Positions 47,973 through 56,234 of a stretch of DNA of 64,000 nucleotides are shown here, in pieces. The first letter of the stretch is position 1; each line of letters opens with the position of its first letter. The stretch is taken from the NCBI GenBank assembly GCA_003213555.1, contig QCMS01000003.1:33152-97151 (forward strand). Direction: 5' to 3'. The stretch comes from Pelagibacteraceae bacterium AG-422-I02 (GTDB lineage: Bacteria > Pseudomonadota > Alphaproteobacteria > Pelagibacterales > Pelagibacteraceae). The notes under the pieces were generated by a model, which was not told the origin of the DNA, made no database searches, and saw only the letters and a list, made by a program, of their open reading frames with translations. Position numbers and translations under genes: made by a program.

Positions 47973-48327
47973 GCCAGATAATTGGATAATCGCTATTATG
48001 CAGTTAATAGAGGAAAGTCCGGGCTCCGTAAAGACACAGTGCCAGTTAATAGCTGGCGAAGGTGACTTCAGGGATAGTGCCACAGAAAATAAACCGCCTA
48101 ATCAAGGCAAGGGTGAAACGGCGAGGTAAGAGCTCACCGGTTTTTTGGTAACAAAAAACGCAAGGCAAACCCCACTGGGAGCAAGGTTAAATAGAGAAGA
48201 CATTGTGTTTGACACTAAAAACAGTCTTTAGTTAGTCTTCTGGGTTAACCGCTTGAGCTTAAGTGCGAATTTGAGCCTAGAGAAATGATATCTTCAATGA
48301 CAGAACCCGGCTTACAGATTATCTGGC
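47973..48327 (+). ncRNA. rnpB: RNase P RNA, type A
   Basis: GAGGAAAGTCCGGGCTCC 5' core, GGTGAAACGGCGAGGTAAGAGCTCACCG, ACAGAACCCGGCTTA 3' core; P1 pairing GCCAGATAAT/ATTATCTGGC fixes ends. Confidence 0.96.
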
Positions 48328-48385
48328 AACACCTTTCGGTATAAAAAATGTTCTACTTTTGTACTTTTAAAAAAGTATAAACTTA

Positions 48386-48427
48386 TTGACTAATTTATAA
48401 AAACCCATACTATCCCAATTAATCCCA
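48386..48427 (+). promoter_or_regulatory. Putative mra/dcw promoter overlapped by three MraZ-type boxes
   Basis: TTGACT (48386-48391), 16-nt spacer, TACTAT (48408-48413); CCCA at 48404, 48414 and 48424, i.e. TGGGN-N5-TGGGN-N5-TGGGN on the minus strand. Confidence 0.7.
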
Positions 48428-48478
48428 TATTGGAGGATATATTGGAAAATACAAATTATAAGTGGTTTTTATTAAAAA

Positions 48479-48937
48479 ATGTTTTTATCAAGTTACGAGA
48501 ACAAAATAGACAAGAAGGGACGTGTCTCTGTGCCAGCAACATTTAGATCTCACTTAAATTCAATGGGCTACAATGGTTTCATAGGGTACCCGTCTTTTAA
48601 TCATTCAGCTTTAGAGGCTTGCTCTCAAGATAGAATAGAAAAACTTTCAAATACGATTGACTCGCTCAATCCCTTTGAAGAAAAAAGAGATTTCTTTGCT
48701 ACCTCAATACTGTCAGAAAGTGAAAACTTACAATTTGATACTGAAGGAAGAGTTTCTATATCAAACAAATTACTTAATCATGCAAAAATTAAAAACAATG
48801 TTTTATTTGTTGGTTTAGGAAAAACATTTCAAATTTGGGAGCCAAAAATTTTTGAAAAATTTAAAACTTTAGCTAGGAAGAAAGCTTATCAAAATAGATC
48901 TTACTTAAAATGGGAGACAAAACAGAAGGAAATTTAA
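48479..48937 (+). CDS. mraZ: Transcriptional regulator / division protein MraZ
   Basis: MFLSSYENKIDKKGRVSVPATFRSHL, LQFDTEGRVSISNKLLNHAKIKNNVLFVGLGKTFQIWEP. Confidence 0.95.
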   Translation: MFLSSYENKIDKKGRVSVPATFRSHLNSMGYNGFIGYPSFNHSALEACSQDRIEKLSNTIDSLNPFEEKRDFFATSILSESENLQFDTEGRVSISNKLLNHAKIKNNVLFVGLGKTFQIWEPKIFEKFKTLARKKAYQNRSYLKWETKQKEI

Positions 48938-48938
48938 T

Positions 48939-50438
48939 ATGAGTATAAATATTGGTGGAGGAGAATTAAAAGAATTAAAACCTAGAATTTTAGTTTTAGG
49001 AGTTGGAGGCGCAGGAGGAAATGCAATAAATGCAATGATTGAGTCTGGAATGGAAGGCGTAGAATTTGTTGCTGTGAATACAGATGCTCAAGATTTGAAA
49101 ATGAGTAAAGCTGACGCCAAAATTCAGATAGGAATGAATTTAACTAAAGGCTTGGGAGCTGGTGCTAAACATGATATTGGCCAAGCCGCCGCCGATGAGT
49201 CTATGAATGAAATTACGAGTTATATGCAAGGTGCGAATATGGTTTTTATTACATCTGGAATGGGTGGAGGCACAGGCACTGGTGCATCTCATGTGATTGC
49301 AAGAGCAGCAAGAGAATTAAATATTTTAACTGTTGGTGTTACAACTTTACCTTTTTCTTATGAAGGTCCAAAAAGAATGCGGAGAGCATTAGAGGGATTA
49401 GAAGAATTTAAAAAACATTTAGATACTGTAATTGTAGTTCCAAATCAAAACCTTTTCAAGATCGCAAGTGAGACAACTACATTTGAAGAATCATTTAATT
49501 TATCAAATAATGTTTTAAAGCATGGAGTGCAAAGTGTTACTGATTTAATGGTTAGACCTGGAATGATTAATTTGGATTTTGCTGATGTTGAAACTGTTAT
49601 GAGTGCAATGGGAAAAGCTATGATGGGTACAGGAGAAGCAGAGGGTGAAAATAGAGCTATGTCTGCTACTGAAATTGCTTTAAACAATCCATTGATTGAT
49701 GAGTATTCTCTTCAAGGTGCCAAAGGATTATTAATTAATATAACTGGTGGAAATGATCTTACACTTTTTGAGGTCGATCAATCTGTTAATAAAATAAGAG
49801 CAGAAGTTGATCCTGAAGCTGAATTAATTTTTGGCGCAATCAAAGATGAAAATATGACAGGAAAAATTAGAGTTTCAATAGTAGCAACTTCACTTGATGG
49901 ACATAAAACTGAGAATAAAACAGTATTAAATATGTTTTCAAGAGTTCAAAATCGAAACACAGGGTATTCTGAGAATTTATTTTCTCAGAATTCACGAATT
50001 GAAAAAAATACTTTAAATTCTATTGATGGTGCTACTGCATTAAAACTTGATGAAAGTTTTGAATTAGATGAACATAAGATGAATAATTTACTTAATGATG
50101 CGGAAAATCAATCAGTTAATGATACAAAATTTGAAACTTCCCTAGACGCAGTGAAGCCAACTAATGAGATACCTTCTGGTGTCTCTATTGAAAGTGCCTC
50201 ATACATGGAAAAAAATAGCTCAATAGAAAATGACTTAAATCAACCAATATCAGCACCCAATGAAGATGAAGAGTATACACCAAAATTATTTTCTGATGAA
50301 CAGGGCTATCAATCAGATAAAGACATGGAAGAGTCAAATGCTCAAGAAAAAAACGATATTGATGAATTATTTAATCAAGAAGTAAATGAGGAAGAGGATT
50401 TCGAAATTCCAGCATTTTTAAGAAAACAAAAGTTTTGA
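48939..50438 (+). CDS. ftsZ: Cell division protein FtsZ
   Basis: GVGGAGGNAINAMI, NTDAQDL, GMGGGTGTGASHVIA, C-terminal peptide DFEIPAFLRKQ. Confidence 0.98.
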   Translation: MSINIGGGELKELKPRILVLGVGGAGGNAINAMIESGMEGVEFVAVNTDAQDLKMSKADAKIQIGMNLTKGLGAGAKHDIGQAAADESMNEITSYMQGANMVFITSGMGGGTGTGASHVIARAARELNILTVGVTTLPFSYEGPKRMRRALEGLEEFKKHLDTVIVVPNQNLFKIASETTTFEESFNLSNNVLKHGVQSVTDLMVRPGMINLDFADVETVMSAMGKAMMGTGEAEGENRAMSATEIALNNPLIDEYSLQGAKGLLINITGGNDLTLFEVDQSVNKIRAEVDPEAELIFGAIKDENMTGKIRVSIVATSLDGHKTENKTVLNMFSRVQNRNTGYSENLFSQNSRIEKNTLNSIDGATALKLDESFELDEHKMNNLLNDAENQSVNDTKFETSLDAVKPTNEIPSGVSIESASYMEKNSSIENDLNQPISAPNEDEEYTPKLFSDEQGYQSDKDMEESNAQEKNDIDELFNQEVNEEEDFEIPAFLRKQKF

Positions 50439-51798: not shown

Positions 51799-53494
51799 AA
51801 ATATTTATCAGAAAAGTTTCTATTTTGAAGATTATATAGAGACAAATAAAAAAAATAAGATATTAGGAAAATCTAATAATTTTAAAGATAGAATTTACTT
51901 ATTATTTTTCATTTTTATTTCTCTTATATTAATTTTTTCAATAAAAATTTTACATATTTCATTTAATAAACAAAATGTACTCAACTTTGAAAAGCAAACA
52001 CTAGAATTTAAACTGATTAGAAGAGATATAGTCGATAGAAATGGAGTTATAATTTCAAGAAATATTAATACTTTTCATGCAGCTATTAATCCAAATTTAG
52101 TTAGAGACAAAAAAAATTTTATTATAAAATTAAGACTTAACTTCCCCGATCTACCAATTGATGAAATAGAAAAAAAATTGGAAGAAAAAAAGTACTTTCG
52201 AATCAAAAAAAGAATTGATCAAATTGAAAAAGATAAATTTTGGGCTATGGGAGAAAAAGGCATTATATTTGAACCGTTTCAAGCTAGAATGTATACACAT
52301 GGAAATCTTTTTAGCCATATCATTGGTCAAGTTGATTATGATAATTATGGAATATCTGGTGTTGAGAAATATTTTGATAAAAAATTAAAAGATAAAAATG
52401 AAATAAATAAACCTTTAAGATTAACCTTAGACAGTAACATTCAATACATAATTAATAATGAATTAAGTGAAGCTATAAAAACCTTCGATGCAACAGGTGG
52501 TGGAGCTTTATTAATGAATGTAAATAGTGGTGATATATTATCATTGGTCTCACTACCTGATTTTAATATTAATCAAAGAGTCGATATTAAGGACAAAAAA
52601 TTTATTAATAAGATTACTAAAGGCGTTTATGAACTAGGTTCAATTTTTAAAACTTTTACAGTAGCTTTGGCTCTTGATAATCAATTAGTTGATACAGATA
52701 CTATAATTGAGAATATACCAAGAAAAATTAAATGTTCTAATCATAATATCACAGACATAAAAGAGCATCCAAAAAATTTATCAGTTGAAGAAATTTTAGT
52801 AAGGTCATCCAATGTAGGCTCTGTATTTCTGGCAAAAAAATTAGGTGAAGAAAGTTATAAAAAGTTCATAAATGAAACTCGTCTAACAAAAAATCCAGAA
52901 ATTGAATTGGAGGAAGTCGGTGTACCCCATCAATTAAATTGGAATAAATGTAAACTAGAAACGATTTCTTTTGGTCACGGAATTACTACTACTCCTTTGC
53001 AAGTCACTGCTTTGTATGCTGCAATGATCAATGGTGGTAACATGATTTTACCTAGTTTAATTAAAGATAGAAAAATAAAAAAATCACAAAAAATAATTTC
53101 TAGTGATACCAGTGATAAACTCAGAAATATTTTAAGAAAAGTTGTTAAAAGTAAAAATGGTACAGCAAGTTTAGCTGATAAAGAGGGATATTACGTTGGC
53201 GGCAAAACTGGAACTGCGGAAAGTTATGGAGATAAAAAAAATAGAATTAACACTTTTATTTCAATTTTTCCCTCTTACCACCCAAATTACACATTATTTG
53301 TAATGCTAGAAAACCCAAAAATTAATAAAGATTTGATTTATAATTATCGTGGAATTAAGACCAAGGCACCTCACAATACATCAGGTTGGAATTCTGTTTA
53401 TGTTGCTGGCAAAATTATAAAAAAAATTGGGCCAATTTTAGCCATAAATAACGAAGAGTTTAAAAACCAGTATGTTACTGAAAAATTTAATTAA
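51773..53494 (+). CDS. ftsI: Peptidoglycan transpeptidase FtsI (PBP3)
   Basis: RRDIVDRNGVIISRN, ELGSIFKTFTVALAL (SxxK), SSNVG (SxN), GGKTGTAE (KTG). Confidence 0.95.
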   Translation: MKKKYKINKNIYQKSFYFEDYIETNKKNKILGKSNNFKDRIYLLFFIFISLILIFSIKILHISFNKQNVLNFEKQTLEFKLIRRDIVDRNGVIISRNINTFHAAINPNLVRDKKNFIIKLRLNFPDLPIDEIEKKLEEKKYFRIKKRIDQIEKDKFWAMGEKGIIFEPFQARMYTHGNLFSHIIGQVDYDNYGISGVEKYFDKKLKDKNEINKPLRLTLDSNIQYIINNELSEAIKTFDATGGGALLMNVNSGDILSLVSLPDFNINQRVDIKDKKFINKITKGVYELGSIFKTFTVALALDNQLVDTDTIIENIPRKIKCSNHNITDIKEHPKNLSVEEILVRSSNVGSVFLAKKLGEESYKKFINETRLTKNPEIELEEVGVPHQLNWNKCKLETISFGHGITTTPLQVTALYAAMINGGNMILPSLIKDRKIKKSQKIISSDTSDKLRNILRKVVKSKNGTASLADKEGYYVGGKTGTAESYGDKKNRINTFISIFPSYHPNYTLFVMLENPKINKDLIYNYRGIKTKAPHNTSGWNSVYVAGKIIKKIGPILAINNEEFKNQYVTEKFN

Positions 53495-56234
53495 AGAAAT
53501 TCCAAAAGATAAAAGAAATATTTTTATCACTGGACTTTCAAGTAATAGCAAAGAAATAAAAAAGAATTATATTTTTTTTGCTATTAAAGGAAATAAAACG
53601 AATGGAGAGAAATTCATAAAAGATGCAATAAATAAAGGTGCTTCAGTAATTGTTTGTTCTCAAAGTTGTAAATTTCAAGACAAAAAAATTTTAATAATCA
53701 AAAAGAATAATATTAGGTATTTTTTAAGCGAGATAGCCTCTAAATTTTACAAATTAAAACCAAAAAATATAATCGCTGTTACTGGAACAAATGGTAAAAC
53801 GTCAGTTGCTGATTTATTTTATCAAATATTAAGAATTAATAATCAATCTGCAGGAAGTATTGGTACTTTGGGAATTAAATATAATGGAAAGATTAAAAAA
53901 ACTAATCTTACATCTCCTGATACTATTTCACTTCATAAATACTTATACCTTCTAAAAAAGAAAAAAATAAACAATGTAATTATTGAAGCCTCAAGCCATG
54001 GCTTGCACCAAAAAAGATTACATCATATCAAATTAAAAGGTGCTATTTTTACAAATTTTAGCCAAGACCATTTAGACTATCATAAAAACATGAAGTCCTA
54101 TCTAAATGCCAAATTTTTATTGTTCAAAGAAGTATTGAAAAAAGGGTCCACAATAATTTCTGATAGAGAAATCGACCAATTTTATCAAATAAAAGAAATA
54201 GCAAATAGAAAAAATTTAAAACTTTTAGATATCAGCAAAGAGTTAGAATTACTTAAAAATTTTTATTTAAATTCGTTCAATGACTTTAAATTAAAAAATT
54301 TAGCTATGGCAATTAAGGCAATCAAACTTTGCAGTCCAAAAGAAAATTCAATTTACGGATCTTTAAAAAAAATAAAAGATGTAAATGGTAGACTTGAATT
54401 AGTAAAAAAATACTCAAACGATATAAGAGTTTTTGTAGATTATGCTCATACGCCTGATGCTTTATTAAAAACCTTAAAATCACTTAATAATAGTTATGGA
54501 GATAAAATATCTTTAGTTTTTGGCTGCGGTGGTGATAGGGACAAAAAAAAAAGATCTCTAATGGCAAAAATAGCTGATAGTTATTGTAAAAAAATTTATG
54601 TAACAGACGACAATCCTAGAAATGAAAAACCAAGTAAAATAAGAAATATAATTCTTAAATTTATAAAAAAAAACAAATCTTTTAATATTGGGAATAGATC
54701 CTTAGCAATAAAAAAGGCTATTAAAAACGCAGAACCAGGGGAGATAATTCTTGTGGCTGGTAAAGGACATGAAAAAAAACAAATTTACAAAAATAAAATA
54801 ATTAAAATTTCAGATAAAAAAATTATACAAAAAATAAACTTTAAAAGTAAAATTTTAAATAAAAAAGAGTTAATCTATCGTCAAAATCAATTTTTATTAA
54901 GTAATATTTTAGGTAAAAAAAAAGGTGTAAAATTTAATGGATTATCAATTGACTCCAGGTCAATAAAAAAAGGTAATTTATTTTTATCAATTAAAGGAAA
55001 AAATAATGATGGTAAAAAATTTATAAATGATGCATTGAAAAAAGGTGCAGGGTGTGTAATCACAGACTCAATAATTCAAAAAAAAAATAAAAAAATTTTT
55101 AAAGTAAATAATACAATTTCTTTTTTAAATAACTTTGCCAAATCAAAAAGGGCTCAAAGTCAAGGTAAAATAATAGCAGTAACAGGAAGTGCTGGTAAAA
55201 CATCTGTAAAAAATTTATTAAAAAACCTGCTAAAAAATTTTGGAAAAACTTACTGTTCACCAAAATCTTTCAATAATCATCTCGGCGTACCTATCAGTTT
55301 ATCGAACTTAAGTTTTGATGATAGATTTGGGATTTTTGAAGTAGGTATGAGCAAAATTGGAGAGATCAAAAAACTTTCAAAGATGATTAAACCTCATATT
55401 GGAATAATTACAAATATTGGAGAGGCCCACTTAGAAAATTTTAATAATATTCATGGAATAGCCAAAGCAAAATCAGAATTAATTGAAAATATAGAGCCCG
55501 GAGGAACAATCATCTTAAATAGAGATGATAAATTTTTTAATCATTTATTAAAAAAGGCAAAAAAATATAAATTAAAGATTTCTACATTTGGAAAACATAA
55601 AAAGTCAGATATTTGTTTAAAAAAGATAATAAAAAAAGGCAACATATTTAAATTATTAATAAATATGGGCTATCAAAAAATAGAACTAATAATTAAAGAT
55701 TTAAATTTTTATAACGTACTGTCCTCTTTAGCAGTTTTAAAAGAGTTAAAAATGGATGTTTCAACAATTAAAACAAAATTTAGATTTTTGGATTCCTCTG
55801 AAGGAAGAGGTAAAAAATATATAATTTCGAGATACAATAAAAAATTCAAATTAATAGATGAAAGTTATAACGCAAATCCATTATCAGTAAGAAATGCTAT
55901 TAATAAATTAAGTTCGATAAAGAAAGAAAAATCAAAAAAGTATTTATTATTTGGTGACATGCTTGAATTAGGCTCAAAGTCCAGAAAATATCATGAAGAA
56001 CTTTCTAAAGTTATTAACAATTCTGATATTGATAAAGTATTCATTAAAGGAAATAAATCAATTTTCACATATAAACATCTTAATAAAGATAAAAGAGGAA
56101 ATATTTTACAAAATAAAGAAGATATAGATAGCTGTTTAAGTAAGATTATATCAAATAATGATTATCTTATGATTAAAGGATCTAATGCAACTGGACTTAA
56201 CGAATTTAGTAAAAAAATGATAAAAGGGAAATAA
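53472..56234 (+). CDS. Bifunctional MurE-MurF fusion
   Basis: One uninterrupted 920-aa ORF: MurE half with GTNGKTSVADL, TNFSQDHLDYH, DDNPRNE; MurF half from ~54900 with GLSIDSRSIKKGNLFLSIKG, TGSAGKTSVKNLL, NIGEAHLENF, DESYNANPLSV. Confidence 0.95.
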   Translation: MLLKNLIKEIPKDKRNIFITGLSSNSKEIKKNYIFFAIKGNKTNGEKFIKDAINKGASVIVCSQSCKFQDKKILIIKKNNIRYFLSEIASKFYKLKPKNIIAVTGTNGKTSVADLFYQILRINNQSAGSIGTLGIKYNGKIKKTNLTSPDTISLHKYLYLLKKKKINNVIIEASSHGLHQKRLHHIKLKGAIFTNFSQDHLDYHKNMKSYLNAKFLLFKEVLKKGSTIISDREIDQFYQIKEIANRKNLKLLDISKELELLKNFYLNSFNDFKLKNLAMAIKAIKLCSPKENSIYGSLKKIKDVNGRLELVKKYSNDIRVFVDYAHTPDALLKTLKSLNNSYGDKISLVFGCGGDRDKKKRSLMAKIADSYCKKIYVTDDNPRNEKPSKIRNIILKFIKKNKSFNIGNRSLAIKKAIKNAEPGEIILVAGKGHEKKQIYKNKIIKISDKKIIQKINFKSKILNKKELIYRQNQFLLSNILGKKKGVKFNGLSIDSRSIKKGNLFLSIKGKNNDGKKFINDALKKGAGCVITDSIIQKKNKKIFKVNNTISFLNNFAKSKRAQSQGKIIAVTGSAGKTSVKNLLKNLLKNFGKTYCSPKSFNNHLGVPISLSNLSFDDRFGIFEVGMSKIGEIKKLSKMIKPHIGIITNIGEAHLENFNNIHGIAKAKSELIENIEPGGTIILNRDDKFFNHLLKKAKKYKLKISTFGKHKKSDICLKKIIKKGNIFKLLINMGYQKIELIIKDLNFYNVLSSLAVLKELKMDVSTIKTKFRFLDSSEGRGKKYIISRYNKKFKLIDESYNANPLSVRNAINKLSSIKKEKSKKYLLFGDMLELGSKSRKYHEELSKVINNSDIDKVFIKGNKSIFTYKHLNKDKRGNILQNKEDIDSCLSKIISNNDYLMIKGSNATGLNEFSKKMIKGK

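Follow-up and report, generated by a model that had tools for sequence, protein, structure and literature searches.

The MraZ operator of E. coli, said to have been described by Eraso et al. in 2014, reportedly consists of TGGGN-N5 repeats; in the E. coli locus included in our comparison (L285), it reads GTGGGAAATTGTGGGGCAAAGTGGG and shares with SAR11 three TGGGN boxes at a 10-bp period 5' of mraZ. In Mollicutes, a MraZ-family protein is likewise accompanied by direct-repeat boxes in the mraZ promoter (structures 9r4j and 9sz7), but the box sequence, AAAGTG[T/G], differs from that in SAR11 (PMC8475190). A small ORF 5' of mraZ is known from another alphaproteobacterium, R. sphaeroides, whose dcw leader comprises the sRNA UpsM and an sORF that is confined to this species and overlaps the UpsM terminator; unlike for the SAR11 leader presented here, an overlap with mraZ is not described (PMC5089854). 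As for overlapping frames, ribosomes on phage fr RNA that have terminated scan for the nearest start, which may also lie 5' of the stop, and the closest one is used exclusively (reviewed in PMC12548453). The coat-lysis coupling of fr and MS2 resembles the SAR11 arrangement in its out-of-frame overlap and in a start upstream of the stop being reached, whereas SAR11 has a short leader without conserved sequence as its upstream ORF, and the nearest candidate start, the GTG at codon 18, lies inside mraZ and in frame with it. Finally, the ambiguous starts AUGUG and GUGUG of E. coli give overlapping frames (PMC9841429). Here, too, one ribosome-binding region feeds two frames, comparable to the 7-nt ATG-N4-ATG of many SAR11 relatives, but SAR11 differs in its spacing and in a long, conserved stop-free overlap.

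We analysed a stretch of 64,000 nucleotides from Pelagibacteraceae bacterium AG-422-I02 (the window) and compared its mraZ locus with loci from the Pelagibacteraceae (f1), a sister family of the same order (f2), other alphaproteobacteria and other Pseudomonadota. Family counts refer to 178 distinct Pelagibacteraceae mraZ loci from 13 genera, which are related and not independent; change counts are by parsimony on a single-gene tree built from the mraZ codons beyond 25. The rnpB gene lies upstream of mraZ in 167 of 169 relatives, as it does in Cand. P. ubique HTCC1062 (PMC2704228). On the 3' side of the promoter follow mraZ, ftsZ, rsmH, an unassigned ORF where ftsL would be expected, and ftsI. 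While mraZ-rsmH is the usual order elsewhere, including E. coli, ftsZ directly follows mraZ in 177 of the 178 family loci, with stop and start codons that overlap in most of them and lie at 48935-48941 in the window (Table 1). Further downstream (53472-56234), a 920-codon ORF with two Mur-ligase-like halves resembles, by eye, a MurE-MurF fusion. The mraZ product has two domains, each with a D-x-x-x-R motif, seen in the sequence as IDKKGR and FDTEGR (D-x-x-G-R), and its fold matches the MraZ-promoter complexes 9r4j and 9sz7. By domain and fold, the cognate protein is MraZ.

Table 1. Features of the mraZ locus; positions are those of the window.
Feature	Position	Strand	Evidence or remark
rnpB, RNase P RNA class A	47974..48330	+	Rfam RF00010, 299 bits; upstream neighbour of mraZ promoter
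-35 element TTGACT	48386..48391	+	TTGAC 17-21 bp 5' of box 1 in 176/178 relatives
Probable MraZ box 1 (TGGGT on minus)	48403..48407	-	sequence and family conservation
-10 element TACTAT, flanked by boxes 1 and 2	48408..48413	+	same place: TACTAT 84/178, TAATAT 27/178
Probable MraZ box 2 (TGGGA on minus)	48413..48417	-	sequence and family conservation
Probable MraZ box 3 (TGGGA on minus)	48423..48427	-	sequence and family conservation
Shine-Dalgarno (SD) GGAGG of leader ORF	48432..48436	+	median anti-SD duplex energies across loci
Leader ORF, TTG start, 34 codons, +1 frame relative to mraZ, 68-nt mraZ overlap, TAG 48544-48546	48442..48546	+	phase, openness and stop position conserved
mraZ	48479..48937	+	PF02381, E 1.7e-19, 70 bits, two stretches; fold matches 1n0e, 9qlg, 9r4j, 9sz7
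mraZ codons 6 (TAC), 8 (AAC), 11 (GAC), C-ending	48494..48511	+	C in 178/178, 177/178, 176/178; keep leader frame open
SD-like GAAGGGA before codon 18	48514..48520	+	median -8.9 kcal/mol in f1, -7.9 in f2, -7.2 in other alphaproteobacteria
mraZ codon 18 (Val, GTG), putative in-frame start within the gene	48530..48532	+	GTG 178/178 vs 6% of Val codons in the background
ftsZ	48939..50438	+	PF00091/PF12327; starts one base past mraZ stop

Operator boxes over the dcw promoter

The original prediction placed three MraZ-type boxes over a candidate dcw promoter, and direct reading of the sequence bears this out. CCCA occurs at 48404, 48414 and 48424, the minus strand reading TGGGA-TTAAT-TGGGA-TAGTA-TGGGT, which is the E. 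coli MraZ signature of TGGGN direct repeats with 5-nt spacers. The predicted promoter, TTGACT-16-TACTAT, was found as proposed, with its 16-bp spacer: box 1 starts within the -35/-10 spacer, box 2 abuts the -10 element and box 3 lies at or just past the expected transcription start, which we placed by inference from the -10. That the repeats stand out from the background also proved correct, as CCCA-N6-CCCA-N6-CCCA occurs just once on both strands of the 769,465-base assembly and its reversed control not at all. The single copy is the array over the mraZ/dcw promoter, and the same genome encodes MraZ. Two-box sites (CCCA-N6-CCCA) exist at four other places in the assembly (G000:C1:25517, C1:29414, C2:1446 and C6:15745), compared to 1+1 for the control pattern; this excess is too small for us to claim a MraZ regulon in AG-422-I02.

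A lack of conservation of the CCCA-N6 period in related genomes had been named as the finding that would speak against the boxes. Across SAR11, the array is kept at its 10-bp period in all 178 loci, with three exact CCCA boxes in 154 and a weakened box 1 (NCCA followed by two CCCA) in the other 24. It also keeps a fixed register with TTGAC, and the commonest sequences between boxes 1 and 2 are TACTAT and TAATAT. The boxes are conserved over the 13 genera of the family, in the sister family and in other alphaproteobacteria, always 5' of mraZ. Judging from this pattern and from the cognate MraZ with both of its D-x-x-G-R motifs, the three boxes very probably constitute the MraZ operator over the dcw promoter.

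The orientation of the boxes relative to E. coli had been flagged for checking, and comparison across classes, with the sequences 5' of mraZ in L236-L314, reveals that those of SAR11 are inverted. Among other alphaproteobacteria, CCCA pairs lie on the coding strand in 46 loci and TGGG pairs in none, while nine loci have no pairs, so that CCCA is found in 46 of 46 scorable loci; L310 is a further alphaproteobacterial locus with CCCA on this strand. In beta- and gammaproteobacteria, including E. coli, it is TGGG that the coding strand carries (all 16 scorable loci of other Pseudomonadota), indicating that box orientation differs by class. The SAR11 boxes thus do not share the strand of their E. 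coli counterparts, and orientation is a lineage trait rather than a defining feature of the MraZ operator. A second difference from E. coli is their position over the -10 element and the expected start. As the three boxes, one helical turn apart, cover both of these, bound MraZ would exclude RNA polymerase; from this overlap of operator and promoter, together with the precedents of E. coli and Mycoplasma, we infer that MraZ would repress its own gene in SAR11.

A leader ORF that overlaps the start of mraZ

The original prediction made no mention of a leader ORF downstream of the boxes. Behind box 3, GGAGG is followed after 5 nt by a TTG codon, which opens a frame that crosses the mraZ ATG (Table 1). 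We know of no overlapping leader for the mraZ of Mollicutes, and the literature we searched, from which subscription papers were mostly absent, contained no report of this ORF or of SAR11 MraZ boxes. Across the loci, the median anti-SD duplex energy is -9.3 kcal/mol at the leader start vs -3.1 at the mraZ ATG.

The window leader alone could be a product of chance, but this does not hold for the family, in which the same phase is kept despite varying length. The start with the strongest SD of any frame lies in phase 1 in 167 of the 178 loci, and in 165 this frame is also open through the mraZ start; most of the exceptions to the strongest-SD rule also have a phase-1 ATG 7 nt before mraZ. Leader starts lie anywhere between 7 and about 79 nt from the mraZ ATG. 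On the tree, we count about 53 changes in the length of the leader region and four in the phase class. Since the distance list used in the analysis of stop positions comprises phase-1 leaders only, the evidence for phase comes from the strongest-SD survey and the tree. A sequencing error, one extra A before the ATG, was considered as the cause of the out-of-frame leader and rejected, as relatives of many leader lengths share the phase. Three close relatives (L033, L041 and L151) no longer have a start codon at SD spacing, and in L026 and L151 the phase is shifted within a homopolymer, be the shift real or an assembly error. In L176 and L207, a single-base change brings the SD-led start into the mraZ frame and yields an N-terminal extension. 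The sister family (L213, L218, L225, L227, L230, L231, L234 and L265-L273) has an SD-led TTG or ATG in frame as well, extending MraZ at its N-terminus by about 11-14 residues of the MIILITNFFYKM-like type.

Within the overlap, the codon usage of mraZ preserves the openness of the leader frame. A third-position T in mraZ codon 6 (Y/F/H), 8 (N) or 11 (D) would create a stop in the leader frame, and these at-risk codons end on C in 529 cases and on T in 2 (n=531), compared to about 20% C in the same-gene background and 2-62% C in all other C/T columns of mraZ. Both T's occur in L176, where the leader is fused in frame and the stop-avoiding codons are already lost. Given protein and codon usage, the probability that phase 1 is open to +59 averages 0.006, whereas it is open in 177 of 178 loci; the other out-of-frame phase has no excess openness (expected 0.32, observed 19/178). 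In the sister family, codon 8 is AAT in 16 of 16 loci, and this phase has early stops and no stop avoidance. The mraZ frame itself displays normal third-position variation in the overlap, indicating that both frames are used. On this comparative evidence, the leader frame is in all likelihood translated.

The N-terminal part of the leader varies freely in sequence and in length, from a few residues to about 25, and family comparison detected neither a codon-position pattern of protein conservation nor a third-position excess in this part. A leader that is itself so little conserved in sequence favours a role in cis over a functional peptide. Nor does it look like an attenuation leader peptide, given the non-conserved N-terminal part and the RNA structure of the window leader, which is not unusual and does not exceed that of shuffled sequences (z +1.35).

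The leader stop and codon 18 of mraZ

The leader ends at +62 in 48 loci and at +68 in 129, together 177 of 178. All loci with a C in codon 22, which removes the +68 stop, have the +62 stop (Fisher 7.7e-5, not tree-corrected), indicating that the position of the leader stop is under selection too. Shortly before it lies Val18 of mraZ, whose invariant GTG underwent no change on the tree, compared to 62 changes at Val16 and 60 at Ser17. GTG is the only valine codon able to start translation. It is retained in both genomes with in-frame leaders, L176 and L207, while only 2 of 16 sister-family loci have GTG at Val18. GTG18 (+52) begins 8 or 14 nt before the leader stop, which amounts to a start-stop overlap of 11 or 17 nt and, on comparative evidence, gives the arrangement typical of termination-reinitiation, in which a translated first ORF stops close to the start of the second. 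Measured coupling falls with overlap length and, according to one of the studies reviewed in PMC12548453, had disappeared at -25 nt; the SAR11 overlaps are -11 or -17.

The SD-like GAAGGGA before codon 18 is mostly a by-product of the KKGR codons and not specific to a start at this site, since leaderless relatives score nearly as well (Table 1). In one clade of 14 genomes (L003, L006-L008, L010-L012, L014, L016, L018, L021, L026, L049 and L068), however, the otherwise conserved Gly14 of DKKGR is replaced by W, R or M, which usually creates GGAGGG 5 nt before GTG18. In the AF2 model of MraZ (mean pLDDT 68; residues 11-30 above 80), strands span residues 5-9 and 15-17 and a helix starts at 20, so that initiation at codon 18 would leave out precisely one hairpin, the first, together with DKKGR. 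Taken together, we give a coupling of leader termination to a start at GTG18 an even chance. The invariance of this codon could instead preserve the Ala of the leader frame or another signal.

It is conceivable that the leader acts purely as a throttle, diverting ribosomes from the mraZ ATG into a dead-end frame to keep the repressor scarce, with GTG18 being no start at all. Stops close to the ATG would be selected against, as any ribosome that ended there would start anew at this codon, and the strong leader SD next to a weak one at the ATG, the extension of stop avoidance over the first 20 codons and the non-conserved peptide all agree with this reading. We still regard it as unlikely, as it leaves unexplained both the GTG at Val18 in 178 of 178 loci and the constant leader stop at +62 or +68. 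Distinctly less probable is that the leader codes for a small protein with a function of its own, its C-terminal half being basic (LRKQxRQKRKGxSA-like) and its overlap with mraZ incidental. Such a protein would account for the open frame and for the invariant G of Val18, which yields an invariant Ala in the leader frame; yet the residues beside this Ala vary, the N-terminal part is free in sequence and length with no third-position excess, and MraZ is joined to this frame or takes its place in L176, L207 and the sister family. The -62/-68 geometry is reminiscent of the MS2 coat-lysis overlap of -50 (PMC12548453), and a positive coupling of this kind would have leader translation open the mRNA, with a stop beyond +60 leaving the mraZ start uncovered; as the window RNA is no more structured than its shuffles and the invariance of GTG18 would again be unexplained, we consider this very improbable. 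A programmed +1 frameshift that joins leader and mraZ into one protein, with an N-terminal extension like those from the SD-led in-frame starts of the sister family and two SAR11 genomes, is hardly credible, given that the genera share no slippery site near the ATG (flanking sequences, including T5 and A-runs, vary), that stop avoidance reaches 20 codons past the ATG while conservation of the mraZ frame begins at codon 1, and that for a shift at the leader stop the preceding codon could not re-pair after a +1 slip in the 48 +62 loci.

Possible two-layer control of mraZ-ftsZ

The reading that we prefer combines the MraZ operator with a coupling of the leader to GTG18, and we consider it about evenly balanced whether these two layers control mraZ-ftsZ in SAR11. 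Ribosomes loaded on the strong leader SD would bypass the weakly initiated ATG, and we think it rather probable, from the comparative pattern, that the leader limits use of the mraZ ATG in this way. On termination at +62 or +68, they would re-initiate at GTG18 and produce MraZ without residues 1-17, that is, without its first beta hairpin and the DKKGR motif; the sole source of full-length repressor would be ribosomes that start directly, and weakly, on the ATG. The coupled ribosomes would keep moving towards ftsZ, and as ftsZ starts at or next to the mraZ stop, traffic from GTG18 would also feed ftsZ. More tentatively, and as something less likely than not, one may picture two forms of MraZ from one gene: the bulk of the product would be missing the N-terminal hairpin that binds DNA and could poison the MraZ ring or cap it, the scarce full-length form would bind the operator, and the leader would, through translation, determine how active the repressor is and how much ftsZ is expressed.

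SAR11 bacteria are among the most abundant cells of the ocean and have few transcription regulators. For their division cluster, the locus offers what is very probably a clean, family-wide operator, and the class-level inversion of box orientation constrains models of how the MraZ ring is seated on the promoter. Upstream ORFs of the overlapping kind are familiar from eukaryotes but poorly documented in bacteria; here, a bacterial leader ORF that shadows the start codon of a repressor has left a strong comparative signature. If the start at GTG18 holds true, SAR11 would have a means of setting the dose of its repressor, and possibly the isoform, without extra genes.
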